NCBI GenBank assembly: GCA_015064555.1
Contig: SVRZ01000024.1
Coordinates: 1 to 38,060 of the forward strand
DNA: 38,060 nucleotides
Direction: 5' to 3'
Source of the DNA: Oscillospiraceae bacterium
GTDB lineage: Bacteria; Bacillota; Clostridia; Oscillospirales; CAG-272
Shown: piece by piece, positions 6,886-23,829 of the stretch
Layout of the letters: every line of letters begins with the position of its first letter
How positions within the stretch are numbered: position 1 is the stretch's first letter
Program-made: the position numbers and the translations under genes
Notes under the pieces: model-generated
Databases searched by the model: none
Told to the model about the DNA's origin: nothing
What the model saw: only the letters and a program-made list of their open reading frames with translations

Positions 6886-7716
6886 GTGAAAAAAATTTAT
6901 CGACTGCTTGCCTATGAGATAAAAGCGCCTAAGACATTCGGTCTTTTTCATCTGACCTTTGCCGCAATCATCGCGTTTACAACGGCAAAGCTATGCAAAA
7001 GAGCACCCAATGATACCGAGCGGCGCGAGCGAAAAACAGCACTTATCTTTTGGTTGATACTCCTTTTCTTCGAAACATATAAGCAAATAATTTACTCGGT
7101 AAGTCTCCAAGGAGATGAGTTTATATGGCAATATGCCTGGGGTTCATTCCCCTTCCAGCTCTGCTCTATGCCCCTATACGTGTTGCCTTTTATCGCATTT
7201 TTACCGAATGGACGGCTACGCGAGAGCTTCGTCGCATTTTACGGCAGCTATATCCTTCTCGGAGGTCTGGCTGTATGCGTATATCCCGGAAGCGCTTTTA
7301 CCGAAACGCTCGGTGTAAATATACAGACTATGGTCTGGCACGGCTCTCAGGTAATATTGGGCATCTATTTCAACGTAAATCGCTTTGCAAATGATGATAC
7401 CATAACCCCGAAAGGTCAGCTTCTTTTGGCTTTTCCGCTCTTTCTTTCCTCGGTATCGATCGCCGTTATTCTGAACGTGGTCATTCAGAATATGCTTGAT
7501 TCCATCGGAATATCCGAAGTATTCAATATGTTTTATATAAGCCCTTATCACGAATCCATCTTCCCGATACTCGATAAGCTGAGCGTCTCTGCACCGTACC
7601 CCCTATTCATTTTAACCTACGTAACCGCTCTTACAGTCTTTTCTTTCATACTGCTCTTGGCATGCAAAGCAGCAGTATTGCATGCTTGCCATAAAGCTGA
7701 AGTCAAAAATATTTAA
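6886..7716 (+). CDS. YwaF-family integral membrane protein
   Basis: A protein of about 276 aa with six to seven hydrophobic segments. It carries the features of the YwaF/TMEM164-like family: an FPFQLCSMPLYVLPF helix near residue 90 and a TMVWHGSQVILGIY helix near 155. Members are uncharacterised in bacteria. I place the start at GTG 6886, 6 nt after AAAGGAG; the ATG at 6865 has no SD. A possible extended -10 (TGG-TATAAA, 6837-6845) lies upstream. The gene stands alone and ends in a very strong terminator. A decayed second copy lies at 23938-24172, so this gene was once duplicated in the neighbourhood. Localisation is clear, function unknown. Confidence 0.75.
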   Translation: MKKIYRLLAYEIKAPKTFGLFHLTFAAIIAFTTAKLCKRAPNDTERRERKTALIFWLILLFFETYKQIIYSVSLQGDEFIWQYAWGSFPFQLCSMPLYVLPFIAFLPNGRLRESFVAFYGSYILLGGLAVCVYPGSAFTETLGVNIQTMVWHGSQVILGIYFNVNRFANDDTITPKGQLLLAFPLFLSSVSIAVILNVVIQNMLDSIGISEVFNMFYISPYHESIFPILDKLSVSAPYPLFILTYVTALTVFSFILLLACKAAVLHACHKAEVKNI

Positions 7717-7763
7717 AAAACCTTCCGTTTTGCAAATCATCGTTTGCAAAACGGAAGGTTTTT
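7716..7763. terminator. Long-stem terminator with TTTGCAAA apex
   Basis: A perfect 21-bp stem with loop TCATCG; the arms end in TTTTGCAAA and start with TTTGCAAAA, and the right arm ends in TTTTT. It can serve both the YwaF gene (+) and the peptide/giant-protein operon (-). The same apex occurs in the terminators at 24181 and 34923. Confidence 0.9.
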
Positions 7764-7855: not shown

Positions 7856-7984
7856 TTATAAATCAAGGTCCCATATACCGTCGTTTTCTTCTTTGGGTGT
7901 GGTTTCGGTTCCGGGCGAGGAGGTTATGATATCCTCTGCCGAAAGCTTTACAATCTCAATTTCGGGATCAACGTATTTTTTCAT
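7856..7984 (-). CDS. Short acidic peptide, copy A (42 aa)
   Basis: A 42-aa gene too short for usual gene callers. It begins MKKYVDPEIEIVKLSAEDII, continues with a TSSPGTETTP segment and KEENDGIWD, and ends LDL. An SD of AAAGGAG stands 8 nt before the ATG at 7984. It starts 34 nt after the stop of the 2706-aa protein, so it is in the same operon. A second copy (17174-17311) follows the other giant protein; the first 40 or so residues are identical and only the last few differ. There is no signal peptide or transmembrane helix and the peptide is acidic. The conserved position and reading frame argue that it is real. Role unknown: chaperone, regulator, secretion helper or precursor peptide are all possible. 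Confidence 0.75.
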   Translation of the reverse strand: MKKYVDPEIEIVKLSAEDIITSSPGTETTPKEENDGIWDLDL

Positions 7985-8018
7985 CCTGTTTTCTCCTTTC
8001 ATTTTCCATTGTCAGCCT

Positions 8019-11000
8019 TCAATTTTCAACTCCGATTACAGCACGTCTGTAATCGGCTGCACTCTCGCAATACTTTGCGAAGCGCAGAACAAGCTTTACG
8101 AGGTTATCGTTATTCTCGGTCTTTGCCCATTCGTAGTAGCACCTGATATGGCAGGAGTCGCTTTCACCGTTTACGGTGTAGTCAACCGTTTCGGCAAGCT
8201 CGTATGCATAGAGCTTGACTTCAACGTACTTACCGTTAGCATCGCTTCCTTCCTCTGCCGCTACTGCACTGCCGTTTATCGAGAATGCGAAGTCGGATGC
8301 CTTAAATCCTTCTGCAAGATAGAATCTGAGTCCTGGCTTTGCGGTGAGGTTATAGGTAACAGCCGTGATGCCGAGAGTGGGCTTTTCTGCGTTGCCGTTC
8401 ATCACGGGAGCACTGCTTTCATCGTAATTCTCGCCAAGAAGTTCATCGATCTTTGCCATTGCCTCTGCATCGGCAGTACCGAAGTATGCGTATGCAGCCT
8501 TAACGTAGGAAAGAACGTCCTTTACAAGAGTCTTTTCGGTAGCAGAGGCGGTACTGTCTGCAAGAACCTTCTCTGCGTACTTCGGGATAGAGAATGTGAA
8601 GGTTCCTCTCATAGCCTGACCGTCTGTTATTAAAGTGACTACGAGGATAATATCTCTTGCCGCTTCTTTTGCACCAAGATCGACGACCACAAGATGATAA
8701 CCATCCTTTTCGATAAGAGTACCGATATCTACTGCCGCACCGTCGAGAGTGAGTGCCGTGAGATTTGCGTTCTTGGGTATATAGATATTGAACACAAGCT
8801 CCGAGCCGAGAGTGATGCTCGCCTTGGGAACGAAGCTCTGCTCAACGACTGCCTTGGGTGTGAGTCTGTAGGTTGCTGTAGTGCCGTTATCGCTTATCTT
8901 GACGAATACAAGCTCGCCGCCGTTTGCCGCGCTCACGTTGAGCGAGGATGCGGAGGGTATCTCAAGGGTAGTGTAATTACCGCCCTCGGGCTTTGTGAAG
9001 GTGAGCGAGGAGTCTGCATTAGCACCGTCTGTATTAGCGAGTGTGAAGGATGCGGCGGAGCCGATGATCTTACCGCCCCTCATAACGGCTGTGATCTTAG
9101 CGAGCTCACCCGACATATTGAAGAGGGTAACGTTATTTTTCGCTGCGCTGATATCTATTTCACAATCGTTAAGCGTGATATTGAAAGGAATTGCAGTAGC
9201 CGGCAAATCTGTTCCAAAGGTAGTATTGCTTAAAATTCTGAGCGTGCCCGCGCTTGAAAGCAGCTTGATGGTTACATTGTCAAAGATAAAATCAAATTTA
9301 CCTGCGCCTTTGGATGAGGCGTTTATATCTATAACGGGCTTGTTGCCGCTAAGAGCAATGCTACCGTTCTTTACAGTGATGCTCGTATTGTTCGCAGTTT
9401 TCTTCACAGCGTTGAGCATAGGCTGATGAACTACGGTGAAGGTGAAGCCGTTAAGATCGATAACAATACCTGTATTCAAATAGCTGAGGTTGTTGAAATA
9501 ATCACCGGAATATGTAAAGTTGCGTCTCAACAGTATTACCGAGCCTGCATCTCTTGCCTTGGGAAGCGCGCCGGCTGTGTCTTTACCACTCCAAAGGGCA
9601 TACGCGCCGACAAACTTACCGTTTAAGAATACAGCGAAGGGATAATCCTCTGTTGACTGATAAGCAAACGGTATATCACCGTACTCGGTCTTTATGGGCT
9701 CACCGAGCAGATACACGGTATTTGTGCCCTCTGTCTTATCCTTACCGAAGGAAAGAACAACACCGTTCGAATTAGTAAAGAGTATCTCGGGGGTGGGAGC
9801 GGAGATGGGCTGAATAAGAGTGATATAATTTCCGTCATTGCCCTGTCCAACCTCTGCAGTATCGTCACTTCCGATAGTGTAGAGCTTATAATCGTTGATA
9901 TTGCTTGCTATTATCTGTCCACCGTTTATCTCAATGGTGGTGTTTACGTTCACCTTATTCGTACCGAAGTGGAATAATGTGAGTCCACTCGCGGAATCGG
10001 TAAAGTCAAATACGCAGTTGCTTGCCAGAACCTCAATTGCAAGACCCGAGCTGGTCTTATCATCGTGTCCCCAGTCCTGAATTATGGATTTTGCTATTGA
10101 GGAGAGCTTCACACCGTCAAAGCTGAATTTGAGCAGCTTCTTCTCCGCTCCATCGGGAACCATACTGTTGTGACCTAGAGCTATCATAGGTCCTGTCTCT
10201 CTGTCGTTTCTTATCTCTCCGTTTTTGAAGAGAAGCTCGGAGGAAAATCCGAGAGCGGTGGTGGTTGAGTTGTTGAGGTTTATATTTATAATTGTAGTGT
10301 CGACCGCACTGAGAATATTACCCTGAAGGTCTACTATAATCGTGCCTCTTGCGAATAAATGGTTATTACCGTTATCGATACCCGCCTTAGCACCGTAATC
10401 GCGGCGCATCACTATCTCTACGGTATTCCTTACGCTTGCCTCGGCAGCCGTATCGATACATCCACTGGCTGTACCTACCGCTGCCTTGAATGATTTTTCG
10501 GCACTCTTAAAGCTTCCGTTATAGAATACGAAGAAGGGATAATCGTAAGCCGAAAGATATTTTGCGTTGCTTGCGTTTACGGTAAGCGCTCCGTATGAGC
10601 CGAACGCAACACTCTCAAGCTTATACGTTGAGGTAACTCCATCATCGGATATCTCAACAAAATACTTATTACCCTCTGCCGTTGGGAATGCATCCGTGCA
10701 GTGTGCATAATCAACGGCTGTGGTAGCGCCCTCGAATATTATGTATTCACCGTTTGCACCGCGCTCAAGGATCACATTATCGCAAGCAGAATACTTCATA
10801 AGCATATTTGAGATAATGGTATTACCCTTCATTTTTCCACCCTTGATAACAACGGTCGAAACGGTCTTCTGCTTGTTTTCAAGCATATTGAGTACAACCG
10901 CATTAGAGGGGGCGTTTGTAAGGTCAAACGTGCAATCCTCAAATGTGTAATGAAGATCAAGTCCGTCACCTGTCTTGTCATAGTATTCCTTAACTACGGT

Positions 11001-14000
11001 AGTAGCACCGTTTGCAAGCTCAAAGGTAACGCCCTTGAATATGAAATCAAGGCGCTTCGTATCATCAGCCTCGGTATTTCCACTGTGACCGAAGGCGAAA
11101 AGATTACCACTGCTTCTTTCATTTCTGAGAGTACCGTTTATGATCTCCAAGGTGGAGGTGAATTTTGCGGGGGTATTTGCGTTGTATACGTAGTTTACAT
11201 CAATAAACGTAGTATCGACATTTGTGATAGTGAAGTTTCCAAGATCAAGAACGATCTTTCCGTATGCTCCGTTAAAGTTACAGCCCGTATCGCCGCCTGC
11301 CTTGGTAAGCGAATAATTTCTCCTGAGAAGCACCGTTACAGTCTTGTTTTTCGCTGCAGCGGTATTTATCAAGCCTCTTGCACCGCCTAATGCACCGCTC
11401 CAATTTGCGTATCCGCGCTTGAACTCACCGTCCATAAATACGGCAAAGGGATAAGCCTCGGCATCGGTATATCCGCCTGTAATTACACCGTAATCGGTAA
11501 CGTTCTTGTTTTCGGTAAGCTCGTAAACGTCATAGCCGTCAACATTCTCGCTCTTCAGAGTGAAGTTCTTGTATTCACCGAAATCGGTCTTATAGCTGTC
11601 TGTAAGCACCGAGCCGCCCGCTTTCACCTTAAGAGACGTAAGGCTTCCCGCCTCATTCTCGGCTACGGTAGCGGTATCAAGGGAATCCACGGTGAAGAGC
11701 TGTGAATACGCACCGCACGAACGGATCTCACCGCCGACAAGTCTGAAGTTGACTACCGCGGGGACGGTACCGAACGAGAAGGGTGTGCCTCCCGCTGTGG
11801 GGGCATTTGCATCAAGGTCAAATACGCAATCCGTGCAGGTGATGTTGGTTTCGGAGGGCGTATTGCCATTGGTGGACGCATTTTGCCATACGGTCATAAA
11901 CGTGCCGTTTGCCGTTGACATAGTGCTGTCCGCAGTAAAGCCGAAGGTGATATCCTCAAAATCAAGGTTAAATATCTTCTTTTCCTCGGTTTTTAGCATA
12001 TTGTGTATTGCTCCGAGCGAGCCGCCCTTTACAAGGAGACTTCCGTTTCTTACCTTAATATTCGTAGGATAATCATAGTTTGCGCCTGCGTTAAGCTCAA
12101 GCATAAAGAGAATATTTGATGCTCTTGTAAGCTTGTGTTCGCCAAGGTCTATGAGTATCGTGCCAACCGACGAGCCGAATATAGTATTCGAGGGGTTGGT
12201 AAAATCTCTTGTCATAAGTATCTCAACCTGAGAATCTATCCTCGTTATATCAGCCTGAAGCTTGTTAGCCGCAGATACCGCATCCTTAAGGGTCGTGTGC
12301 GCGCCAACCATTACACCGTCCGAGAAGAGGATGAAGGGATATGCCTGCGCGTCACGGTATGCCTCCTCTATTACTCCGTAAAGCGTTGATCCTTCGGTAA
12401 GAGAAAGCTTATAGGTGGAAATGTTATCTTCACCGTCACTTACCTTAACGTAGCTTGCATAGCCGTTGTCTATACGGTAAGAGCCCTTAACACCCGAGGT
12501 AATCGACTCGGGAATCATAAGAGCGGTATATTCACCGTTCGTGCTTATGAAGTCTACTACGGTAGCGTTATTAAGAATTTCCACACGTCTCTGAGATGAA
12601 AGCCTTATCTCGCCGCCCTTTACACCGTAGCTGAGCTTAAGAGAATCCGAAGCGGGCGCGGGGAATATTACCGAGCCGTATTTTGCGTGCATAGCATCGT
12701 TGAGATCTATTACGCAATCGGTGAGGTCTATATCCGCATTCACGGATGAGCCCGCCTTGATAGCAGATGCGCATACAAGCTCGGTAGTGAATGAATTTTC
12801 ACCGAAGCTTATATTTACACCGTGAAGATTGATATCGAAGCTCTTGTTCTCAGCAGTAGCATCGGCAAAGGACACGATAGCCGTTCTTCCGAGCTTGATC
12901 TTACCTCCCGAAATGTTTATCTCGGTTGCCGCGGTGCTTGCCGATTTATCATAGATAAGAGCGCCCGTTTTGTTTGCGGAGGTGATAGTGTAGCCGTTAA
13001 GGTCAATATTTACCTTAGCAAAACCGCCGATACCGCTGTATACGCCCGTATCGTCAAGCGTGTAATTTGCCTGAAGCTTCAAGGTATATCCAGATACGAA
13101 TTTCGCAAAGGCTTCCTTGAGGGTAGCATATTCGCCAACCTTGGTTGCACCGTTATAAAGCGCTATGGGCTTATTTGACACCGCTTCCTTATATTCGAAG
13201 CCGCTTCCGTCATCGGTCATAGCAAGACCCGCAGAGGATATATCAATTGCGGTAAGCTCCTCTGTTACGAGAAGATCTCTTATGTACATCTTCTTGGCGG
13301 AATCTCCCGTGGGAGTGAGAGCGAGTGTCATCGTCTTTGTAACTCCGTCGGAGAGGACGCCGTAATCGGGCTCGTAAACCTCATATGTGAATTCAACGTG
13401 TACCCATTCGTTTGCCTTGGTAGCTACGTTAAATCTCAAACCGTTATAGTCTATAGTACCGTAAACATCCTTTTTCGTCATTCCGTTGAGATAAACGGTA
13501 AGTCTGCGATCCACTGTATCGTATATATCAAAGCCTACCGTAAACCGTCTGCCGTAGTTCTCTACCGAGGTTTTTATTCCGCCCATAAAATTCTTATAGG
13601 TAAGAATTTGAGTAGGGTTATCGTACCATACCGAAAGAGGATTCGAAGCGGAGGGCTTAATTGACTTACCCGTAACGGTTACGGATACTGCCGCCTTACC
13701 GTCAACGGTATCCTCAGCGAAGATAGCATTTTTCCTCGTAGCGTTTGAGTCGGTAAGTATGAGCTTTCCGTCATCGCTCGAAAGCACGTTCTTTGTGCTT
13801 TCGGCATTCTTAGCCTTGAGAAGAAGGGTTACCTCACTTCCCTTGTTTTTTGCAATGTAGTCGGAAATATCGATTTCATACGTGCCTCTGCCGCGAAGAT
13901 TTACAGAGCCGAGAAGCTCACCGCTTACGGCGGCAGTGCTTTCCACAGCATAAAGCTCCGCTACGTTAGCCGCATCGTTTGCAACCGCAAAGCGGAATGC

Positions 14001-16139
14001 GTAGCCGTTTCCAAAGGTTATCTCGGAGGGGGCTGTAAAGGTGTAATATCCGCCGTTAGCCGAAATCTCACTAACCTTATCGGGTTTTGTGATGAAGCTC
14101 ACGGAGAATGCCTCGCCCATATCTACACCGTTCTCACCCGAGAAATCAGCGGGAATATTAACGGTATAAAGCGAGTCTCCCGAAAGAAGCTCGGTGGGAG
14201 TAAATTCCCATATAACACCGCCAAAGGAGGAATCCCAGATTCCCTCTACCGCGTTGCCGCCGAGGGTTACGGTGATCCTCTCAACCTCAGAGCGTGTAGC
14301 AACACCCGTGAAGGCTATTTTGATCTTTGTGTTAAGGTCGGTATTTCCCGCGTTGTCCATAGGTGAGGTATAAGCCACGCCGATAGCCTCGTCCTTAAGG
14401 AAATAGCCGAGATATCTGATGAATGCCTTATAAGCATCCGTGTTATAGTTCATATCCATACCGGAAACGAGAGTATGACCTATAGGAAGCTCAAACTGTA
14501 AAAGAGGAATATCAAGCTCGCGGCAGATATTGTAAATGCTGAGCGAATATCCGTATGCCGCGTTGTAAGTATCCTGCATATTGCCCGTGATGAACATCGG
14601 GCTGTGATTTGCGGTAATATCCTCCTCCTGTGCACCGTTTGCCGCATAGGTAAACTGAGCGCCCGAAAGAATTTCCTTTCCGACAGAATCACCGCTCACA
14701 TAGGTAAGCCAAGGCTGACGCTCTGCCGCGCGGATAGTAAATCCTGACACGGGGTCAGTCATATCGGTAAGATGACCTACCTGATAACGGGTCTCACCGT
14801 AGTGACCGTCGTAATATCTGTCAAAGCCTAAGGTCGAAAGTATAGCATTTATGGCTTCCTCGCGCTCCTCTACACTACCGTAGCTGCCCTTGGCAAGCTC
14901 GGACTGAACGATCTCTTCACCGAGGAATGAGAACCAACCGCCCTTTGAATTTCCGTAAACGCCAAAGGCGTCAAGGTCAAAGCTGACGTCAGCCTCATTC
15001 TCGGAGAAATTACGAAGGTAACGCATTGCAGCGGTATTAACGAGCTTATCGTTATACATATGAACTCCGTAGTTCATATGGTCGCCCGTTATACCGGGTG
15101 CGCTTCCGTCATAGTAGCCGAAGCTTGAGTTTGTCGCCATAGGAACCCACAGATAATCAAATACTGCGTTGGCATAGCCCTCATAAAGGAAGTGATTGGA
15201 ATGAGGGCGAACATCCGCGCTTGTGGTTGCGGTTGTGGGATAGTTCGATGAATTTGCAAGCGACATAACGGGGACGGGCTTTTCGGGATTGGTCGGATAT
15301 ACGATATGTATGTAAAGGTTCATATCGATGAAGCTTCCGTCGGGATCTACGCAATCGTAGATATCCTCAGCTACTGTATATTTAAGCTTCGTATAAAGTC
15401 CGTTTTCGCTGTCCTCTACCTTACATTCCGAATCGCTGTACCACACAGCGTCATCGGTTACCTTCTTTCTTGTATCGGGAGTATTTCCCGTTGCCCACTT
15501 GACTGCACTGTTTGGCTTGTAGGACTTAAGGTCGGTATTCCAGGCATTTACTATCTTCTCAAGCGTGCCCTCGGTAGAATGCTTATCGATCTCCCAGAAA
15601 ACACCGTTAATAAGCACGTTACAGCCCGCGGGGCATACGAAGCACTCGTTAGCCTCCTTGCCTCCCGCATAGCCGCTGAAGCTCATAACGTCACCGAGTA
15701 TAACGTACTTCCTGAACTCCTGCGAGGAGCGCGCAAGCGTTTCGCTATCCGACTCGGTGTTGAGATAATCGGCTACGATAACCACGTATCCGCGATCAAG
15801 CATCGATTTGATGATATCTACGTTGGAATCGGTACCCGCTTTCACTACGTTCGGGTGATTTACAGTGTAAATAACTACGGGTGTACCCTTGTAGCCGGCA
15901 ACGGTATCTCCCTTTGCCGTATCGTAATATACGGTGTACTGAAATTTACCGACGTGATTATCGGTCCATTCCTTGGTGCCCTCAACAAGATAGCTCTTGT
16001 CAAAAGCAGCTTTAATTTCAATCATTTCATTTGTTCCTTCGTCAGCTAATGCTGTTATAGCTATAATTCCCGTTGCAGAAAGCACGCAAAGCATAACCGC
16101 CAGCACCAGCATCTTGAAGAGTGAAGAATGCTTTTTCAT
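8019..16139 (-). CDS. Giant secreted alpha/beta-hydrolase with beta-helix-like repeats
   Basis: A 2706-aa exported protein. Signal peptide 1-33 (cleavage near ITALA|DEG). Residues 55-585 form an alpha/beta-hydrolase domain with nucleophile elbow GNSKGGW (Ser398) and candidate acid Asp523 and base His555 (IGHTLVSG). Then come a Big_5-like Ig domain (590-685), two jelly-roll/carbohydrate-binding-like segments (690-967) and five repeats of about 300 aa starting near 994, 1265, 1563, 1865 and 2167; the last four open with YPF-[AFI]-[VL]-F and each contains LDLxxxx strands typical of parallel beta-helices. The last 270 residues (from FVPKASITLGSEL, about 2436) are shared with the neighbouring giant protein. 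No LPXTG, dockerin or SLH motif was seen. The start at 16139 has AGGAGG at 16150-16155. Probably a surface esterase acting on glycans; the substrate is unknown. Confidence 0.85.
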   Translation of the reverse strand: MKKHSSLFKMLVLAVMLCVLSATGIIAITALADEGTNEMIEIKAAFDKSYLVEGTKEWTDNHVGKFQYTVYYDTAKGDTVAGYKGTPVVIYTVNHPNVVKAGTDSNVDIIKSMLDRGYVVIVADYLNTESDSETLARSSQEFRKYVILGDVMSFSGYAGGKEANECFVCPAGCNVLINGVFWEIDKHSTEGTLEKIVNAWNTDLKSYKPNSAVKWATGNTPDTRKKVTDDAVWYSDSECKVEDSENGLYTKLKYTVAEDIYDCVDPDGSFIDMNLYIHIVYPTNPEKPVPVMSLANSSNYPTTATTSADVRPHSNHFLYEGYANAVFDYLWVPMATNSSFGYYDGSAPGITGDHMNYGVHMYNDKLVNTAAMRYLRNFSENEADVSFDLDAFGVYGNSKGGWFSFLGEEIVQSELAKGSYGSVEEREEAINAILSTLGFDRYYDGHYGETRYQVGHLTDMTDPVSGFTIRAAERQPWLTYVSGDSVGKEILSGAQFTYAANGAQEEDITANHSPMFITGNMQDTYNAAYGYSLSIYNICRELDIPLLQFELPIGHTLVSGMDMNYNTDAYKAFIRYLGYFLKDEAIGVAYTSPMDNAGNTDLNTKIKIAFTGVATRSEVERITVTLGGNAVEGIWDSSFGGVIWEFTPTELLSGDSLYTVNIPADFSGENGVDMGEAFSVSFITKPDKVSEISANGGYYTFTAPSEITFGNGYAFRFAVANDAANVAELYAVESTAAVSGELLGSVNLRGRGTYEIDISDYIAKNKGSEVTLLLKAKNAESTKNVLSSDDGKLILTDSNATRKNAIFAEDTVDGKAAVSVTVTGKSIKPSASNPLSVWYDNPTQILTYKNFMGGIKTSVENYGRRFTVGFDIYDTVDRRLTVYLNGMTKKDVYGTIDYNGLRFNVATKANEWVHVEFTYEVYEPDYGVLSDGVTKTMTLALTPTGDSAKKMYIRDLLVTEELTAIDISSAGLAMTDDGSGFEYKEAVSNKPIALYNGATKVGEYATLKEAFAKFVSGYTLKLQANYTLDDTGVYSGIGGFAKVNIDLNGYTITSANKTGALIYDKSASTAATEINISGGKIKLGRTAIVSFADATAENKSFDINLHGVNISFGENSFTTELVCASAIKAGSSVNADIDLTDCVIDLNDAMHAKYGSVIFPAPASDSLKLSYGVKGGEIRLSSQRRVEILNNATVVDFISTNGEYTALMIPESITSGVKGSYRIDNGYASYVKVSDGEDNISTYKLSLTEGSTLYGVIEEAYRDAQAYPFILFSDGVMVGAHTTLKDAVSAANKLQADITRIDSQVEILMTRDFTNPSNTIFGSSVGTILIDLGEHKLTRASNILFMLELNAGANYDYPTNIKVRNGSLLVKGGSLGAIHNMLKTEEKKIFNLDFEDITFGFTADSTMSTANGTFMTVWQNASTNGNTPSETNITCTDCVFDLDANAPTAGGTPFSFGTVPAVVNFRLVGGEIRSCGAYSQLFTVDSLDTATVAENEAGSLTSLKVKAGGSVLTDSYKTDFGEYKNFTLKSENVDGYDVYELTENKNVTDYGVITGGYTDAEAYPFAVFMDGEFKRGYANWSGALGGARGLINTAAAKNKTVTVLLRRNYSLTKAGGDTGCNFNGAYGKIVLDLGNFTITNVDTTFIDVNYVYNANTPAKFTSTLEIINGTLRNERSSGNLFAFGHSGNTEADDTKRLDFIFKGVTFELANGATTVVKEYYDKTGDGLDLHYTFEDCTFDLTNAPSNAVVLNMLENKQKTVSTVVIKGGKMKGNTIISNMLMKYSACDNVILERGANGEYIIFEGATTAVDYAHCTDAFPTAEGNKYFVEISDDGVTSTYKLESVAFGSYGALTVNASNAKYLSAYDYPFFVFYNGSFKSAEKSFKAAVGTASGCIDTAAEASVRNTVEIVMRRDYGAKAGIDNGNNHLFARGTIIVDLQGNILSAVDTTIININLNNSTTTALGFSSELLFKNGEIRNDRETGPMIALGHNSMVPDGAEKKLLKFSFDGVKLSSIAKSIIQDWGHDDKTSSGLAIEVLASNCVFDFTDSASGLTLFHFGTNKVNVNTTIEINGGQIIASNINDYKLYTIGSDDTAEVGQGNDGNYITLIQPISAPTPEILFTNSNGVVLSFGKDKTEGTNTVYLLGEPIKTEYGDIPFAYQSTEDYPFAVFLNGKFVGAYALWSGKDTAGALPKARDAGSVILLRRNFTYSGDYFNNLSYLNTGIVIDLNGFTFTVVHQPMLNAVKKTANNTSITVKNGSIALSGNKPVIDINASSKGAGKFDFIFDNVTIKLLSSAGTLRILSNTTFGTDLPATAIPFNITLNDCEIDISAAKNNVTLFNMSGELAKITAVMRGGKIIGSAASFTLANTDGANADSSLTFTKPEGGNYTTLEIPSASSLNVSAANGGELVFVKISDNGTTATYRLTPKAVVEQSFVPKASITLGSELVFNIYIPKNANLTALTLDGAAVDIGTLIEKDGYHLVVVDLGAKEAARDIILVVTLITDGQAMRGTFTFSIPKYAEKVLADSTASATEKTLVKDVLSYVKAAYAYFGTADAEAMAKIDELLGENYDESSAPVMNGNAEKPTLGITAVTYNLTAKPGLRFYLAEGFKASDFAFSINGSAVAAEEGSDANGKYVEVKLYAYELAETVDYTVNGESDSCHIRCYYEWAKTENNDNLVKLVLRFAKYCESAADYRRAVIGVEN

Positions 16140-16190: not shown

Positions 16191-16219
16191 TTGACTTTTT
16201 ACGTCAAAAAGTGTACAAT
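16191..16219 (+). promoter_or_regulatory. Face-to-face divergent promoters of araC and the giant hydrolase
   Basis: Plus strand: TTGACT (16191-16196), 17 bp, TACAAT (16214-16219), driving the AraC gene. Minus strand: TTGACG (16202-16207) with a weaker TGTTAT -10, driving the 2706-aa protein. The two -35 elements form a perfect dyad, TTGAC-7 bp-GTCAA (16191-16207), overlapping another inverted repeat ACTTTTT-5 bp-AAAAAGT (16194-16212). Polymerase or regulator binding in one direction should exclude the other. Confidence 0.65.
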
Positions 16220-16258
16220 AATCATCAGATACTGCTATATCAAAGGAGAAGTAAACAT

Positions 16259-17083
16259 ATGCCCGAGATACAACCGTCCAACTTCAGCACAGAAAATCGC
16301 GTTCGCGCTACCCTGCAGAACAAAAGATTTTTGCTTGCCGTGCATATACATCAGTTTGCTGAGCTGATATACGTTATAGAGGGAGAGTTGACCGTAAAGC
16401 ACGACAAAATCGAGGAAGTAGCAAGGGCGGGAGACGTTGTTGCCATTCTCCCCTATCAGCAGCACGGATTTTATACCCCGGAAAATAAAACGGTCAAATA
16501 TTGGATGGTTTTATTTTCCGAGGATCTTATGTCGGATATAGTTTACCACGAAAGTGCTTTCCTTGGATACAAGCACCTTGTATTCAAGCCCTCACCTGCG
16601 TTAAAGACGCTTATAGAGTTAAAAATGTTTGATACCGGTGAGCAGCTCGTTAAGCCGGATTTTGAAAGGACACTCGATTCGAAAGCATTGATATACACGG
16701 CGTTTTCGGAATATTTGCGCAAAAGGTCATCAAATCCATCGGCACAATCCAAGGATGACAAAATAGTTTCCTCCGATCCCGTTACAAAAACAGTTAATTA
16801 TCTGCGAATTAATTTCCGCAGTGACATAGGAGTTGAGGATTGTGCTAAGGAAATAGGATACAGCAAAAGCCATATATCTCACCGCCTACGGGAGCAATTT
16901 CATATGACCTTTATGGATCTGCGAAACACCTTAAGGGTGAGCTATGCCAAGCACATTCTTCGCCATAACAGTATGAGCATTTATATGGTTGCCCTTGAAT
17001 GCGGCTTCAACTGCGAATTAACGTTTGAAAGAGCCTTTAAAAAGCTTACAGGGCTAACTCCGAGGCAATACAGAAGGAAATAA
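16259..17083 (+). CDS. AraC-family transcriptional regulator
   Basis: A 274-aa regulator. The N-terminal cupin-like sensor domain (residues 25-80: HIHQFAELIYVIEGELTV, then GDVVAILPYQQHGFY) is followed by a C-terminal pair of helix-turn-helix motifs (about 175-272), ending in the signature ALECGFNCELTFERAFKKLT-GLTPRQY. Start ATG 16259 is 9 nt after AAAGGAGA (16242-16249); an extension to 16211 would lack an SD. It is divergent from the giant hydrolase and convergent with the second giant operon, so it most likely controls one or both in response to a sugar or glycan fragment. That target is inferred from position. Confidence 0.9.
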   Translation: MPEIQPSNFSTENRVRATLQNKRFLLAVHIHQFAELIYVIEGELTVKHDKIEEVARAGDVVAILPYQQHGFYTPENKTVKYWMVLFSEDLMSDIVYHESAFLGYKHLVFKPSPALKTLIELKMFDTGEQLVKPDFERTLDSKALIYTAFSEYLRKRSSNPSAQSKDDKIVSSDPVTKTVNYLRINFRSDIGVEDCAKEIGYSKSHISHRLREQFHMTFMDLRNTLRVSYAKHILRHNSMSIYMVALECGFNCELTFERAFKKLTGLTPRQYRRK

Positions 17084-17120: not shown

Positions 17121-17162
17121 AAAGCCGAGCTTAAAGCTATCAAACCTTAAGCTCGGCTTTTT
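17121..17162. terminator. Bidirectional terminator after araC
   Basis: Stem AAAGCCGAGCTTAA (17121-17134) and TTAAGCTCGGCTTT (17147-17160), 12-nt loop, followed by T residues. It separates the AraC gene from the convergent second giant-protein operon. A smaller GGTGC/GCACC hairpin precedes it near 17093. Confidence 0.85.
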
Positions 17163-17173
17163 GCCGTGGTTAA

Positions 17174-17311
17174 TTACGGGGTGTTAATGTTAAAATCCCA
17201 GATACCGTCGTTTTCTTCTTTGGGTGTGGTTTCGGTTCCGGGCGAGGAGGTTATGATATCCTCTGCCGAAAGCTTTACAATCTCAATTTCGGGATCAACG
17301 TATTTTTTCAT
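17174..17311 (-). CDS. Short acidic peptide, copy B (45 aa)
   Basis: A second copy of the short peptide, 45 aa, following the 2150-aa-class giant protein after the same 34-nt gap and with the same AAAGGAG SD. The first 39 residues (from MKKYVDPEIE to DGIWD) match copy A exactly; the tail differs, FNINTP here against LDL there. At DNA level the block including the SD, gap and end of the giant gene is nearly identical in both places (about one difference in 170 nt). Different C-termini on a frozen N-terminus hint that the tail is the variable, perhaps functional, part. Function unknown. Confidence 0.75.
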   Translation of the reverse strand: MKKYVDPEIEIVKLSAEDIITSSPGTETTPKEENDGIWDFNINTP

Positions 17312-17345
17312 CCTGTTTTCTCCTTTCATTTTCCATTGTCAGCCT

Positions 17346-20300
17346 TCAATTTTCAACTCCGATTACAGTTTGTCTGTAATCGGCTGCACTCTCGCAATAT
17401 TTTGCGAAGCGCAGAACAAGATTTACGAGGTTATCGTTATTCTCGGTATTTGCCCATTCGTAATAGCACCTGATGTGGCAGGAATCGCTCTCACCGTTTA
17501 CGGTGTAGTCAACCGTTTCGGCAAGCTCGTATGCATAGAGCTTGACCTCAACGTACTTACCGTTAGCATCGCTTCCTTCCTCTGCCGCTACTGCACTGCC
17601 GTTTATCGAGAATGCGAAATCGGATGCCTTAAATCCTTCTGCAAGATAGAACCTGAGTCCGGGCTTTGCGGTGAGGTTATAGGTAACAGCCGTGATGCCG
17701 AGAGTGGGCTTTTCTGCGTCGCCGTTCATCACGGGAGCACTGCTTTCATCGTAATTCTCGCCAAGGAGTGCATCGATCTTCGCCATTGCCACAGCATCGG
17801 CAGTACCGAAGTATGCGTATGCCGCTCTGATGTAAGAGAGAACGTCCTTTACAAGAGTCTTTTCCACAGCGCTTATCGTGCTGTCGGAAAGGACCTTCTC
17901 CGCATATCTCGGGATCGAGAATACGAACGTGCCCTTCATATTAGTTCCATCCACATTGAAGCCTGTTACAAGAGTTATATCTCTTGCCGCCTCGCTTGCA
18001 CCGAGCTTGACGGTCACAAGATAGTATCCGTCCTTTTCGGTAAGTGTACCGAAGTCGAGCGATACGCCGTCGAGAGTGAGTGCCGTGAGATTTGCGTTCT
18101 TGGGTATATAGATATTGAACACAAGCTCCGAGCCGAGGGTTATGCTTGACTTGGGTACAAATTCAGCGAGAGCCGCACTTGCAAGCTGATAAACGGTGTA
18201 ATCACCATCCTTGCCGCTCTGATAGAATCTGTAATCGCCATTCGGCGTGGCGAATCCGGTCGTTCCGAGGGAAATACCGTTTGCCGCTTTAAGAATCGCA
18301 TAATATCCGTTATCACCCTTCTTGAAAATAACGGTATCTCTTCCGTTCTCCGCTACAGGTACGTCAAGATCGGTAGTCTCATCTATGATGAAGGTGCATC
18401 CGATAAACTCAACATTAAATATGTTCTTATCATCAGCGCCGGAAGAATTAGGTCTCATAAGAAGTGCACCCGCCGTATGATTGGTTGCCATATCGACCGT
18501 ACAATTCCTGAAGGACATCTTAAATATAGAGTCTGCACCGCTCTTGGATGTTTGCGACCTTGCTATGAGCATAGCCGTTGCGCTTGAGGACGGAGCATAT
18601 CCTACGTAAACATTTTCGAAATTGATATAAAGTGTTTTGGGGTAAGTGAGATTGCCGCTCTGAGCCGCATAAATAAATCCGTGAACCTTGGCAAGAAGCC
18701 TGCCGTTCTTAATATTTATAGTACCGTCCTTTGCGGAGGTAGCACCTGAGGCAAGGCAATCTGCCGCGCCGGTATTTCCAAGGCTCTCTGCGGCGATAAG
18801 AGTATAACCGTTGAGATCAAGGGTAACGGTAGCTCCTATATTGGAGATACCCGTGGGGAATCCGGTGTTGTAGAAATCGGCTCTGAGAAGTATTACAGCC
18901 TCATCTGTTGTGGCGGTGCCGTTTGCCTTAGTCAGAGCAATAGCCCTTTCCATTGCCGACTTATAATTATTATATCCCTTATCGAATTTATATTCTCCGT
19001 TACCGTCCTTGTAGAAAACAACGAAGGGATATATAGTTGCCGATGCATATTCAATAGGGATATCATCATAGACGGTAGTTACAGCCGCTGCATCAACAAG
19101 AGCGAATAACGTAAGACCATCCCTCACGCCCGCCCCGGTTACGATAAGAGGAGTATTTACAGACGAGATCAGAGTAACACCGCTGATATCTTCCGCGGAA
19201 AGAATGGTTGAATACTCACCGTTTGCATCCTTTTTAAAGGTCACACTGTCACCGGATGCGCTGGCGGGAGTTGCCATATCAGCAAAGCTGTCTATGATAA
19301 ACTCGCAGCCCTCGAAAACAATTTTGTAATCAGCATGGGAAGCATCGCTTGAACCATAAAGGCGACCGAGCTTTGCCTCGGGCTTAGCATAGGTGGAAAG
19401 ATCAAGCGTGCAGTTGATAATGTTCATATTGTATATGATATCAACGCTTCCGCTGTGCGTTCTGTCGCTGATAAGAAGATCGAATCCGGCATCGCTTGCC
19501 GCGCTTGTGGCATTCGGGGCAAATCCGATATAAAGATCCTCAAGCGTATAATTCATCGTCTTTTCTTTTGTAAGTGCGGCACTCGACTGGTTGAATATTA
19601 TACCCCAGCTCTTCATAAGAAGTCTGCCGTTCTTATATATCCAATTGCCGTCATTTGCGTTGCCGCTTGCATCAAGAGCATCCTGTACACCGGTGTTTCC
19701 GCAGCTCGTCTCTGCGGTAAGAGTATGTCCGCCGAGGTCAACGGTTACTGTTCCCGAAATACGTGAGGTTCCTGTGGGATAGCTGGATTCCTTGAAATCG
19801 GTACGAAGGAAAACGACAATATCACTCTCGGTTCCTGTCGTTCCGTGAGTAAGCTGTATCGCCCGGGTGATCGCCGATTTGTAGCTTTCATATCCTCCTT
19901 CAAACTCATATCCCGATGCTCGCTTACAGAATATAACGAAGGGATAGGATACGGAGGATGCATACGAGGCAGGAATATCGCCGTATGCAGTGGCTAGTGA
20001 GCCTATTGCACTGAGAGAATAAACGGTATAATTACCGTCGGTTCCCGTCTGCTTGCAGGCGAGTGCATTTCCTTCGTCATCAAGGAAGGAAATACCTGAC
20101 GCCGAAACACCGCTCTTTATTTTGATCGTAGGATAATTTCCGTCATTGTCCTTGAGAAGAAGGAACTTGTCACCCTCCGAACTCATCGTTACCTTGAAAT
20201 CGTTCGCCGAATCGGCAATGATCGTGCAGCCCTTCATCGTAAGTGTATAATCGTTTGCTGCGACGTCGGCATGATTGGAGGTAGTAAGATATGCAAGATA

Positions 20301-23300
20301 TGAGTTTGCAGGAGCATTGGTTACCATATCGATGGTGCAATCAATAAGATTCATATTGAAGTATGCATTCTTACCTGTGGTATTAGATGATCTGTCATTC
20401 AGGAGGAGCGCCGCCGTGCTTGCTCCCGATGCATATCCTATGTGAACTCCGTTAAGATTGTATTCAAGAGTCTTTTCGGGCTTGCTTGTAGCATAACCGT
20501 CACTACCGGCTGCTGTAAATACTATTCCAAAGCCGCCCATAAGCAGCTTACCGTTGCTGATATTTACGGTAGCCTTAGGATTACTTCCGCAATCATCGGT
20601 TCCGGTATTTCCCATGCTGGTTCTTGCCGTAAGAGTGAAGCCGCCGAGATCGAGATTTACTGTGCCACCGATGTCAGAAACGGCATTGGGATAGGTTTTC
20701 GTATCGTGATTGCTGCGGAGCAGAACGACTACGTCATCGGTAGTACCGCTTGCTACATTAGTCAACTCTATCGCGCGTGTCATAGCCTCGCCATAGCTTA
20801 CCTTTGCAGAATCAAATACGTATGCTCCGTCCCTCTTTCCGAATACGAAGAAGGGATATTTTACCGCATCCTCATAGATCTTGGGAGCATATCCGTAAGA
20901 GGTCTTTATAGACTCAAGGAGAGGATATACCTCATATACGCCCTCCTTGGTGGGATTCGAGCAGGAGAGAAGAATGCTCTTACCGTCCGCATCTATTCCA
21001 TCGAAAGTAAGTGATGAGGGAAACTGAGTACCGCCGGAAAGAGCGATATCGGTATATTTGCCGTTCTCATCCATACGGAAGACAACACTGTCCTCCGCTC
21101 CAAGAATAAATGCGGAGTTATTGCCGCCTACACCTATCAGTCTTCCTCCCACAAACGTCATATGATCGTCATATTTATTATAGATATCGTTTGTGTTTGT
21201 AACCGTGGTGAGCTTTGCAATACATGCGCCGCTCGGAGCACCCGTCATATCAATAACACAGTTATTATAGGTGAACTCATAGGTGAAATTAGGCATAGAA
21301 GAGGTTACGTCAGAGGTTACGTAGGGGTGAACAAGAAGACTGGGAGCCGTTCCGCCTGCCGCATAACCTATTCTCACGTCTGTGAAGGTGAATACGTATT
21401 TTCTCTCTACGGTATAGCTGGCAGGAACTATCTTATTGTAGAACATACCGTACTTGGTATTACAGAGAAGCTCACCGTTCTTAATATCAATATAGGTGCT
21501 TCCTCCTACGCCCGTACCGAAGTCCCGAAGCTCTGTATTCATAAGACTGGTATTGTATGTGAGGGTATAACCGCCCAGGTCGATAACGAGCCTTCCGCCT
21601 ATGCTGCTGCCGGTATAAAGCGAGCTGAATGATGTATCGCGTCTTAAAAGAACGATAGCCTCGTCTTGATACGTAGCGCCGTTAGCTCCGAGGATATAAT
21701 CATCTGCCGCGTTGATAACCGTCTTCCAATCGGAATATCCGGCAACGAAGGTGTAATTAGCCTCTGTTTTCTCCTTTTTGAAAAGTGCGTAAGGGTAAAG
21801 GGTATCATCGGTATATTTGCCTGTTATGGCTGCATACTGTGTCGGAACACTGCCTGAAGCTACCAGCTCATAGGTATAAGCGCCCTCGGCCTCACTGACA
21901 AGCTTATAAGCAACCGAGGTTTCATATGAGCCGTCGAGTCCTGCCATCGTGGGAGTCGATGCAGGCTTTGCAGTAAACGTAACCTTTCCGTAGCTTCCTT
22001 TTTCATCCTTCAGGTAGGTAACGCTGTCGCTTGCGCCCATCTTGCTAAATCCTACATTTGCAGTATTCTGCGCAAGGAAAGTACAGCCCTTGAAGGTTAC
22101 GTTATAATCCGAATTATCGGTATCTCCCGAGGACTTTGCAAGTCTGCCGAGAGTTGCGGTTGCCTTCGCATTGTTTGAAACAAAGTCGAAGGTACAATTT
22201 ACCGCGTTGATATTGTAGATTATATCCGCGGTATCGAATGCACTTCTTTCGCTTGCAAGTATGTCGACATGCTTATCGGAATTATCGTAATTGGTCTTAT
22301 CGGTCGAGAAGCCGAAATATACGTTATCGTAATTGAACTCCATGACCTTATTCTTGGTGAAGGCAGCGGTGCCGGACGCCTTTGCGGCGAAAATAATGCC
22401 GTAGTCGCGCATGAGAAGCTTACCGTTTTTGAAGTTTATAACCGCCTTCTTAGGATTTCCGTTTTCATCGAAGACGTCCTTCTGCGCGGTGTTACCCATG
22501 CTCGTGTTGGCATCTATGGTATAACCGCCAAGGTCAATTGTAATAGTTCCACCTATCCAGGAAAGACCTGTAGGGTAGCCGGATTTGTTATTTGCGCGCT
22601 GAAGTATAACTATCTCATCCTCTGTGCCTGTGGATGCATTCGTCAGGTCGATTGCCTTAGTCATAGCCGATGCATATGAAGCATATCCGTCAACAAAATC
22701 ATATCCGTCAGCAGCTTTCTTAAAGAGAGCAAAGGGATATGAGGAGGCAGATGCCTTGTTGGCAGGGATATAACCGTATTGAGTATTGACTCCGCTCACC
22801 GACTGAACCTTTCTTACGAATGCCTCGCCTATCATCTGCTGGCTGAAGGCATTATAATGCCAATAGTCCTGCTGACTTGGAAGAGTATGCACGCCGGTAT
22901 CGGGATCGAGAAGATCCTCATCCACCTTGACGGCAAAAGCATTGCTCACAGTAGAAGCAACTATATCCTGCTGAGCCTGAACCGTGGATATGTAGGGGGT
23001 TCTCGAGGGATCGTGTTCGGGGTTATTGTATATTCTTCCGAAAACGAAGGGCATCTCGGAGCAGTCTGTGTCTGTAACCGCCGAGAGATCCGCTCTTACG
23101 TCGTTTATGAAGCAGGTAAGAAGCTCGGAGTATGCAGATGAGGTGTCCGCTGAGAAGGTTTCTGCCTCTCCCTGCATATACCACATACCGCGTATAACCG
23201 AAGTATAACCCTCCGCCTCAAGCTCTGCAACCTTATCGGCAACAGTAGCGACAAATCTTAGATAAAGATCGCCCACCTTGCTGGCATTGGTATCTATGCC

Positions 23301-23792
23301 GTATTTGTCAATGTAGGAAGGGGGCGTCCAGGTTCCCTGCTTTACCGATATATCTGCAGCAGTATTGGGATATATATAGGAAGAGCCGTATGCAAGCTTT
23401 ATTATGGCGTGATTTCCGCTATCGCCCACTGCAGTCGCTATTCCTATCTCTGCACCCGAGGTGGTGCTTGATTGGCCAAGACCGAATTTTGTGGCCTGGA
23501 AGTTCTTGGAGTAATTTCCTGTTCCCTCATCCTCTCCGTAGAAGAGAACATTGGAATATCCTGCGGTAAGGTTGGTGTAGCCCTTACGCGTGTTACCGTT
23601 TGCATCGGTCTGTGGATAATCGGCAACTTTTCCGTAGCCGACCGCATTTGACTGACCCGCTATAAGCCAGACCTCTATCTCGCCCTTGCTTCCGGGGGCG
23701 GGAGTTGATGCTGCGTAAATAACAATGCCAAGTGCGGCAATGAGCATCGCCGCCGTCAGTATGACGAGCAACAGCTTCTTCTTCATAATCAT
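17346..23792 (-). CDS. Giant secreted SASA/SGNH esterase with beta-helix-like repeats
   Basis: About 2148 aa. A signal peptide (KKKLLLVILTAAMLIAALG) precedes an esterase domain of the sialate O-acetylesterase-like (SASA, SGNH) type: GQSNAVG with Ser48, WYMQGEAE near 210 and the DYWH dyad (Asp309, His312), so the likely reaction is deacetylation of a polysaccharide. Five repeats of about 310 aa begin near residues 350, 665, 978, 1281 and 1586; each has YPF-x-[VI]-F, an A-[IM]-x-L-T helix, a [VI]LLR strand, and DLGG[YFH]T turns, suggesting parallel beta-helices. The C-terminal 270 residues equal those of the other giant protein. I use ATG 23792, 5 nt after AAAGGA; ATGs at 23798 and 23786 are alternatives. 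The promoter at 23830-23858 is consensus. Confidence 0.86.
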   Translation of the reverse strand: MIMKKKLLLVILTAAMLIAALGIVIYAASTPAPGSKGEIEVWLIAGQSNAVGYGKVADYPQTDANGNTRKGYTNLTAGYSNVLFYGEDEGTGNYSKNFQATKFGLGQSSTTSGAEIGIATAVGDSGNHAIIKLAYGSSYIYPNTAADISVKQGTWTPPSYIDKYGIDTNASKVGDLYLRFVATVADKVAELEAEGYTSVIRGMWYMQGEAETFSADTSSAYSELLTCFINDVRADLSAVTDTDCSEMPFVFGRIYNNPEHDPSRTPYISTVQAQQDIVASTVSNAFAVKVDEDLLDPDTGVHTLPSQQDYWHYNAFSQQMIGEAFVRKVQSVSGVNTQYGYIPANKASASSYPFALFKKAADGYDFVDGYASYASAMTKAIDLTNASTGTEDEIVILQRANNKSGYPTGLSWIGGTITIDLGGYTIDANTSMGNTAQKDVFDENGNPKKAVINFKNGKLLMRDYGIIFAAKASGTAAFTKNKVMEFNYDNVYFGFSTDKTNYDNSDKHVDILASERSAFDTADIIYNINAVNCTFDFVSNNAKATATLGRLAKSSGDTDNSDYNVTFKGCTFLAQNTANVGFSKMGASDSVTYLKDEKGSYGKVTFTAKPASTPTMAGLDGSYETSVAYKLVSEAEGAYTYELVASGSVPTQYAAITGKYTDDTLYPYALFKKEKTEANYTFVAGYSDWKTVINAADDYILGANGATYQDEAIVLLRRDTSFSSLYTGSSIGGRLVIDLGGYTLTYNTSLMNTELRDFGTGVGGSTYIDIKNGELLCNTKYGMFYNKIVPASYTVERKYVFTFTDVRIGYAAGGTAPSLLVHPYVTSDVTSSMPNFTYEFTYNNCVIDMTGAPSGACIAKLTTVTNTNDIYNKYDDHMTFVGGRLIGVGGNNSAFILGAEDSVVFRMDENGKYTDIALSGGTQFPSSLTFDGIDADGKSILLSCSNPTKEGVYEVYPLLESIKTSYGYAPKIYEDAVKYPFFVFGKRDGAYVFDSAKVSYGEAMTRAIELTNVASGTTDDVVVLLRSNHDTKTYPNAVSDIGGTVNLDLGGFTLTARTSMGNTGTDDCGSNPKATVNISNGKLLMGGFGIVFTAAGSDGYATSKPEKTLEYNLNGVHIGYASGASTAALLLNDRSSNTTGKNAYFNMNLIDCTIDMVTNAPANSYLAYLTTSNHADVAANDYTLTMKGCTIIADSANDFKVTMSSEGDKFLLLKDNDGNYPTIKIKSGVSASGISFLDDEGNALACKQTGTDGNYTVYSLSAIGSLATAYGDIPASYASSVSYPFVIFCKRASGYEFEGGYESYKSAITRAIQLTHGTTGTESDIVVFLRTDFKESSYPTGTSRISGTVTVDLGGHTLTAETSCGNTGVQDALDASGNANDGNWIYKNGRLLMKSWGIIFNQSSAALTKEKTMNYTLEDLYIGFAPNATSAASDAGFDLLISDRTHSGSVDIIYNMNIINCTLDLSTYAKPEAKLGRLYGSSDASHADYKIVFEGCEFIIDSFADMATPASASGDSVTFKKDANGEYSTILSAEDISGVTLISSVNTPLIVTGAGVRDGLTLFALVDAAAVTTVYDDIPIEYASATIYPFVVFYKDGNGEYKFDKGYNNYKSAMERAIALTKANGTATTDEAVILLRADFYNTGFPTGISNIGATVTLDLNGYTLIAAESLGNTGAADCLASGATSAKDGTINIKNGRLLAKVHGFIYAAQSGNLTYPKTLYINFENVYVGYAPSSSATAMLIARSQTSKSGADSIFKMSFRNCTVDMATNHTAGALLMRPNSSGADDKNIFNVEFIGCTFIIDETTDLDVPVAENGRDTVIFKKGDNGYYAILKAANGISLGTTGFATPNGDYRFYQSGKDGDYTVYQLASAALAEFVPKSSITLGSELVFNIYIPKNANLTALTLDGVSLDFGTLTEKDGYYLVTVKLGASEAARDITLVTGFNVDGTNMKGTFVFSIPRYAEKVLSDSTISAVEKTLVKDVLSYIRAAYAYFGTADAVAMAKIDALLGENYDESSAPVMNGDAEKPTLGITAVTYNLTAKPGLRFYLAEGFKASDFAFSINGSAVAAEEGSDANGKYVEVKLYAYELAETVDYTVNGESDSCHIRCYYEWANTENNDNLVNLVLRFAKYCESAADYRQTVIGVEN

Positions 23793-23829
23793 TTCCATCC
23801 TTTAAAATATTTGTTTTAATGGTATCACA

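Follow-up and report, generated by a model that had tools for sequence, protein, structure and literature searches.

Genes at the locus

The window, i.e., the whole stretch of 38,060 nucleotides analyzed here from the draft genome of an Oscillospiraceae bacterium, carries two small peptide genes, each located behind a gene for a giant secreted protein. The following features were identified.

7856..7984, minus strand: peptide gene copy 1, probable precursor of the linear polyphosphorylated peptide (LPP) type (frame 7859-7984, 42 aa; stop codon 7856-7858)
17174..17311, minus strand: peptide gene copy 2, tail FNINTP (frame 17177-17311, 45 aa; stop codon 17174-17176)
7993..7999, minus strand: AAAGGAG, Shine-Dalgarno-like sequence of copy 1
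17320..17326, minus strand: AAAGGAG, Shine-Dalgarno-like sequence of copy 2
7716..7763, minus strand: terminator-like hairpin 3' of copy 1
17121..17160, minus strand: terminator-like hairpin 3' of copy 2
7922..7984, minus strand: residues 1-21 of copy 1, a predicted leader carrying Y4-x-x-P7 and T21 (alignment; putative leader role by analogy with PMC13381572)
7859..7921, minus strand: predicted core, the putative product, copy 1 residues 22-42 (selection on the tail; exact cut and phosphorylation presumed)
7916-7918, minus strand: invariant Ser23 in the predicted core of copy 1
8019..16139, minus strand: giant secreted protein of 2706 aa, the partner upstream of copy 1
17346..23798, minus strand: giant secreted protein of 2150 aa with a SASA esterase domain, the partner upstream of copy 2
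8022..8822, minus strand: C-terminal region common to the giant proteins, first protein (15 genome matches; fold model)
17349..18146, minus strand: C-terminal region common to the giant proteins, second protein (genome matches)
16211..17083, plus strand: gene for an AraC-type regulator, transcribed divergently to the first giant gene; it may regulate the two-gene unit

As the initial annotation had read them, the two peptides are identical over residues 1-39 and differ in their tails (LDL in copy 1, FNINTP in copy 2), and both start codons are located 34 nt past the stop of the giant gene, with AAAGGAG common to both. Since each small gene is followed by a terminator-like hairpin, it looks to be the last gene of a two-gene unit. 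Database searches gave no match to the peptide in Pfam at E ≤ 0.1 or in NCBIfam at E ≤ 1, in accordance with the earlier remark that it belongs to no known family; the gene set described below nevertheless fits the LPP family of RiPPs (PMC13381572). No peptide was detected behind another gene of the window (31118-34669, minus strand), whose 1183-aa product contains Flg_new and LRR_5 repeats.

The peptide is a gene family in the source genome

When the 2.07-Mb draft, which is 82% complete, was searched for copies of the peptide at E ≤ 10, 14 places were found: 11 full close copies, a further copy truncated at the end of a contig, and two distant cousins. With these copies and with relatives across the class, the peptide is not the orphan it had been called, but a gene family within the source genome. 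The 34-nt gap of both window copies recurs in 4 of the 11 copies with a visible upstream gene (one of these copies being cut), the rest having gaps of 16-25 nt, so that the constant spacing noted earlier does not extend to the whole family. Among the 11 full copies, only window copy 2 has a tail of a different type. The distant cousins, on contigs C20 and C44, are found just upstream of proteins with signal-like N-termini. These cousins (L024:1622-1789 and L025:12776-13090, both on the plus strand) lie upstream, not downstream, of their partners, and end in NGWT and DGWL.

Comparison of the 11 full copies gave a pS of 0.390 and a pN of 0.022 for the tail (columns 18-40; pN/pS 0.056), and a pS of 0.588 and a pN of 0.206 for the leader (columns 1-20; pN/pS 0.35). 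The tails of the copies on C14 and C15a differ by 12 synonymous and no amino-acid changes. Selection at the protein level holds the C-terminal half of the peptide. The initial annotation had considered that the frame would be a non-coding by-product of duplication if homologous loci lacked it or showed stop codons and no synonymous bias. The near-identical DNA of the two window copies would suit such an origin, but the low pN/pS of the tail and the synonymous-only differences between C14 and C15a refute it, and the relatives of the peptide across the class also argue against it, leaving it next to no probability.

The same pattern was observed in a sister genome (G172), where four loci carry another common tail (tail pS 0.451, pN 0.028; leader pS 0.517, pN 0.120). 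Inside the source genome and G172 the tail is the most constant part of the peptide; across genomes, in contrast, it is the leader motif that is conserved and the tail that varies. Genome G085 is an exception, because the four copies read there have differing tails with little in common beyond a WT ending. At one locus of G085 (L179:2453-7270, plus strand), a 1605-aa protein with a lipoprotein-like N-terminus ends in NDGSGWT, which resembles the NIDGGGWT tail of the peptide behind it.

Leader motif and conserved serine

The N-terminus of the peptide has a Y-x-x-P leader motif, and its Y-x-x-P-E-I suggested a leader bound by an RRE; W/Y/L-x-x-P motifs are bound by many RREs (PMC12710340). In the alignment of 40 clostridial precursors, the sole invariant column is a Ser two residues past a conserved Thr. 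A pattern search gave a Tyr-to-Thr distance of mostly 17. At T+2 this pattern was restricted to S, M, T, N or D, and the tallies that it produced for motif positions 1 and 4 should not be relied upon. In the L144 cluster, the peptide has no T-x-S motif.

Secreted partners of the peptide

The shared C-terminal region has 15 matches in the source genome, 13 with a visible gene end and two running off their contigs. A peptide was found behind 11 of the 13 assessable genes (one peptide being cut), and none was detected behind C27:59299 and C32:50719. In two related MAGs from roe deer caecum, RGIG4071 and RGIG4066, with 44-48% identity in the shared region, a peptide was present at 4/4 such loci. 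In the copy on C14, the upstream giant protein contains the shared region internally and has a different sequence at its end; therefore, the peptide has not merely been copied along with this region.

A wider set of 72 loci (14 from the source genome, 29 from the family and 29 from the class) included 52 in which a gene encoding 100 aa or more ends at most 60 nt upstream of the peptide. Of the rest, 8 had a gene starting at most 100 nt downstream, 5 were at a contig edge and 7 had neither. Outside the source genome, where the best-scoring peptide per genome was used, such an upstream gene was present at 41/58 loci. The description of the peptide as locked behind each giant thus largely holds for the shared-region genes and the outside loci, the two source-genome genes named above being exceptions without a detected peptide. 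At the loci analyzed with wider context, a signal-like N-terminus, called by a rough home-made rule, was found in 26/28 complete upstream partners versus 55/137 other ORFs of at least 300 aa, with a median length of 1342 aa for the partners versus 480 aa for the other ORFs.

The initial annotation had proposed to check whether hits across Clostridia always sit behind genes ending in the same C-terminal domain. Many partners in the class sample end in sequences other than the shared C-terminal region, which therefore cannot be the sole docking site. The association of the peptide is thus with secreted proteins at large rather than with any single C-terminal domain. The fold model of the shared region predicts two beta-sandwiches with helices after each, and no clear relative was found.

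Probable enzyme partners in the source genome

The source genome encodes one clear stand-alone PqqD/RRE protein over the cut-off (C18:9947-10246, 61 bits). A SipW/Sec11-type peptidase gene (C18:9474-9941) starts 5 nt past its stop codon. It belongs to a group of SipW-like peptidases with invariant S29, H67 and D84, which has matches in the PDB to SEC11 and signal peptidase I (SEC11A, E 1.2e-05). These Ser, His and Asp motifs and the SEC11A match resemble SipW/Sec11-type signal peptidases; unlike them, the protein is short and its gene adjoins an RRE gene, directly behind a listed PqqD gene in 88 of the 150 listed cases. The peptidase likely acts on the RRE-bound leader. An HprK-like kinase is encoded at C27:11092-11793 and a PF14907 nucleotidyltransferase at C9:15110-15835. 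The RRE with the peptidase, the kinase and PF14907 are hence located on three contigs, and none of them adjoins a detected precursor. In the region of the genome's own kinase (L173:8093-10313, plus strand), the next gene resembles one for a polysaccharide chain-length regulator. On contig C21 (L032:4976-7259, minus strand), a radical SAM/SPASM gene precedes one of the PAD_porph (agmatine-deiminase-like) type.

The RRE profile matches the lasso RREs TbiB1 and TfuB1, and also 9x90 and 9x8z. Together with a Y-x-x-P-x-I/L leader similar to lasso leaders, this would be expected of a lasso peptide precursor, but the lasso leader peptidase PF13471 was over the cut-off in 0/80 peptide genomes, the source genome included, with 8 weaker matches at E ≤ 0.001, and we regard a lasso precursor as very unlikely.

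Co-occurrence of the peptide and the enzymes

Among 295 genomes of the same family, PqqD was detected in 95/99 genomes with the peptide versus 98/196 others (both in 95 genomes, peptide without PqqD in 4, PqqD without peptide in 98, neither in 98), and the peptidase in 88/99 versus 69/196 (both in 88, peptide without peptidase in 11, peptidase without peptide in 69, neither in 127). With both enzymes considered together, the peptide was present in 88/150 genomes having PqqD and peptidase, 7/43 having PqqD only, 0/7 having the peptidase only and 4/95 having neither; 98 of the 193 PqqD genomes had no peptide. In the class sample of 391 genomes, the peptidase was found in 51/56 peptide genomes versus 68/335 others. 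Peptide genomes in which the partner was not detected numbered 4/99 for PqqD and 11/99 for the peptidase in the family, and 5/56 for the peptidase in the class, the drafts being incomplete. The link between peptide and peptidase was also seen within genera (odds ratio 4.4, p 0.003, 18 informative genera), as calculated for the 223 of 295 genomes with a known genus, the other 72 being left out.

Fifty of the 99 peptide genomes were tested for the two remaining enzymes: the HprK-like kinase profile matched 50/50 versus 7/30 others, and PF14907 matched 43/50 versus 11/30. These contrasts are inflated, because 20 of the 30 peptide-negative genomes are without PqqD and 28 without the peptidase. In L151:4906-7191 (minus strand) the peptidase forms a fusion with an ABC exporter, and in G026:C43:27068-28258 and G048:C27:6040-7182 a single open frame covers both the peptidase and PF14907; these arrangements support a common pathway.

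Gene clusters in relatives

In ten relatives (L143-L152), selected for closeness of peptide and peptidase, the peptide, kinase, RRE and peptidase are all encoded in one cluster; the kinase and RRE models used on these loci contain most of the clusters' own sequences. Each cluster is preceded by a gene for a protein of 259 to 1750 aa, the one of L143 being cut by a contig end. An ABC exporter gene was confirmed in L146, L147, L148 and L149, in addition to the fused one of L151, and PF14907 was confirmed in L145, L146, L148 and L152. Departures from the common arrangement include a swapped order of RRE and kinase in L151 and an extra gene between peptide and kinase in L143, L147 and L149. In the window's own family, locus L157 of genome G257 encodes a giant protein, the peptide, kinase, RRE, peptidase and PF14907 in a row.

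The peptide could also be an unprocessed small protein acting intact as a partner, chaperone or anchor of the giant, with the enzymes co-occurring through common lineages. Its tight pairing with secreted proteins and the selection on its tail would agree with such a role; the within-genus association with the peptidase, the clusters joint with kinase, RRE and peptidase, and the leader motif do not, which makes the intact partner quite unlikely. Among the roles suggested in the initial annotation, that of a precursor yielding its C-terminal tail as product finds good support in the leader motif, in the RRE, peptidase and kinase partners and in the selection on the tail; nothing in the data spoke positively for a secretion helper or a translational regulator.

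Two further loci carry a radical SAM gene, in L091:4821-7544 (plus strand) with the kinase, precursor and RRE, and in L092:2707-4935 (minus strand) with the precursor and RRE, each with several Cys in the precursor tail; a hybrid of LPP and radical SAM RiPPs is possible there. These loci, along with two SPASM matches in the source genome, would favor the precursor of another RRE-dependent RiPP, e.g., one made by a radical SAM enzyme, for which the kinase and peptidase were mere companions. We consider this unlikely, given that the kinase accompanied the peptide in every peptide genome tested, that just 4/68 distinct peptides have a Cys past residue 24, and that no radical SAM gene was noted by eye in the ORF lists of L143-L152.

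Comparison with known systems

Linear polyphosphorylated peptides were reported as a RiPP family in May 2026 (PMC13381572). The genes LppA, K, B, S, D and N were described in Paenibacillus alginolyticus. The RRE protein LppB presents LppA to LppS, a SipW-like peptidase with S29, H68 and D93, which cuts after T-1, and LppK places several phosphates onto Ser3 of the core, where Ser is accepted and Thr and Tyr are not. Each LPP cluster contains one to three precursors, and LPP clusters of Bacilli also occur in polysaccharide loci. The final product was not found, and its role was stated as unknown by the authors.

The clostridial system resembles LPP in its short precursor (LPP range 35-200 aa) with a YxxP leader and a C-terminus that varies between genomes, and in a conserved Ser past a Thr, close to the published phosphate acceptor (PMC13381572). 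It likewise includes a stand-alone RRE, an HprK-like kinase, a SipW-like Ser/His/Asp peptidase and a PF14907 NTP transferase, and ABC exporter genes in several clostridial relatives may correspond to the MsbA-like ABC exporter of LPP. In the 80 peptide genomes searched, the lasso peptidase did not pass its cut-off, which is a further similarity to LPP. The published leader consensus is YxxPxVLxHQxIxFETxxS with a Tyr-to-Thr distance of 15 in LppA, in contrast to the clostridial leader, which lacks VLxHQxIxFET and has a distance of mostly 17; the conserved Ser is at T+2 rather than at T+3. Compared with the single LPP cluster, the source genome has many scattered precursor copies, each adjoining the gene of a secreted protein, and the enzymes of this draft are on three contigs, although L143-L152 and L157 are clustered. 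Furthermore, the clostridial tail is more constant than the leader within a genome, and the organisms are Clostridia, whereas the family mapped in PMC13381572 was from Bacilli.

RRE-guided leader removal is known from paeninodin (PMC5067487). Paeninodin-type lasso peptides share this step and an HprK-like kinase with the clostridial system, and an NTP transferase occurs in related clusters. The clostridial genomes differ from them in having the SipW-like peptidase in place of PF13471, which was over its cut-off in none of the 80 peptide genomes.

Proposed pathway and its meaning

Because the enzyme set is the one that defines LPP, the window peptides are most likely LppA-like precursors of a clostridial LPP-type RiPP with the tail as the product, a reading in which we have good confidence. 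The differing leader consensus and spacing, the L144 peptide without T-x-S and a modification deduced from the genes led us to assign them as a variant of LPP. In the proposed pathway, the Y-x-x-P leader would be held by the stand-alone RRE encoded elsewhere, on C18; the HprK-like kinase (C27) would phosphorylate the invariant Ser23, and the SipW-like peptidase (C18, next to the RRE) would cut the leader off near T21. The nucleotidyltransferase (C9) may decorate the phosphate. The remaining product, presumably exported, would comprise about 21 acidic residues, with an IWDLDL ending in most copies. With the peptide gene last in a two-gene unit with the giant secreted protein, production of such a surface protein would always be accompanied by that of the same product, which probably acts together with the giant protein at the cell surface.

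Compared with PMC13381572, the new aspects are the precursors scattered genome-wide, their pairing mostly with secreted giants, and one tail at many loci. With one tail at nearly all loci, the product gives the impression of a partner that the surface proteins have in common. More tentatively, and with less than even confidence, the clostridial LPP could be a surface system, in which many giant surface proteins are co-made with their own copy of a genome-specific phosphopeptide that docks on, anchors or marks the surface protein or a glycan partner. One enzyme set would then serve a dozen scattered precursors, and the core would be a species-specific shared part rather than an antibiotic.

The link of individual precursor genes across Clostridia with genes for large secreted proteins, together with a tail sequence that selection maintains at many loci of one genome, provides a concrete hypothesis for the function of LPPs, and the question of function becomes testable via a small gene behind a surface protein. 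Our results also indicate many unannotated precursor genes in gut genomes, and that RiPP precursors can escape searches confined to enzyme neighborhoods.
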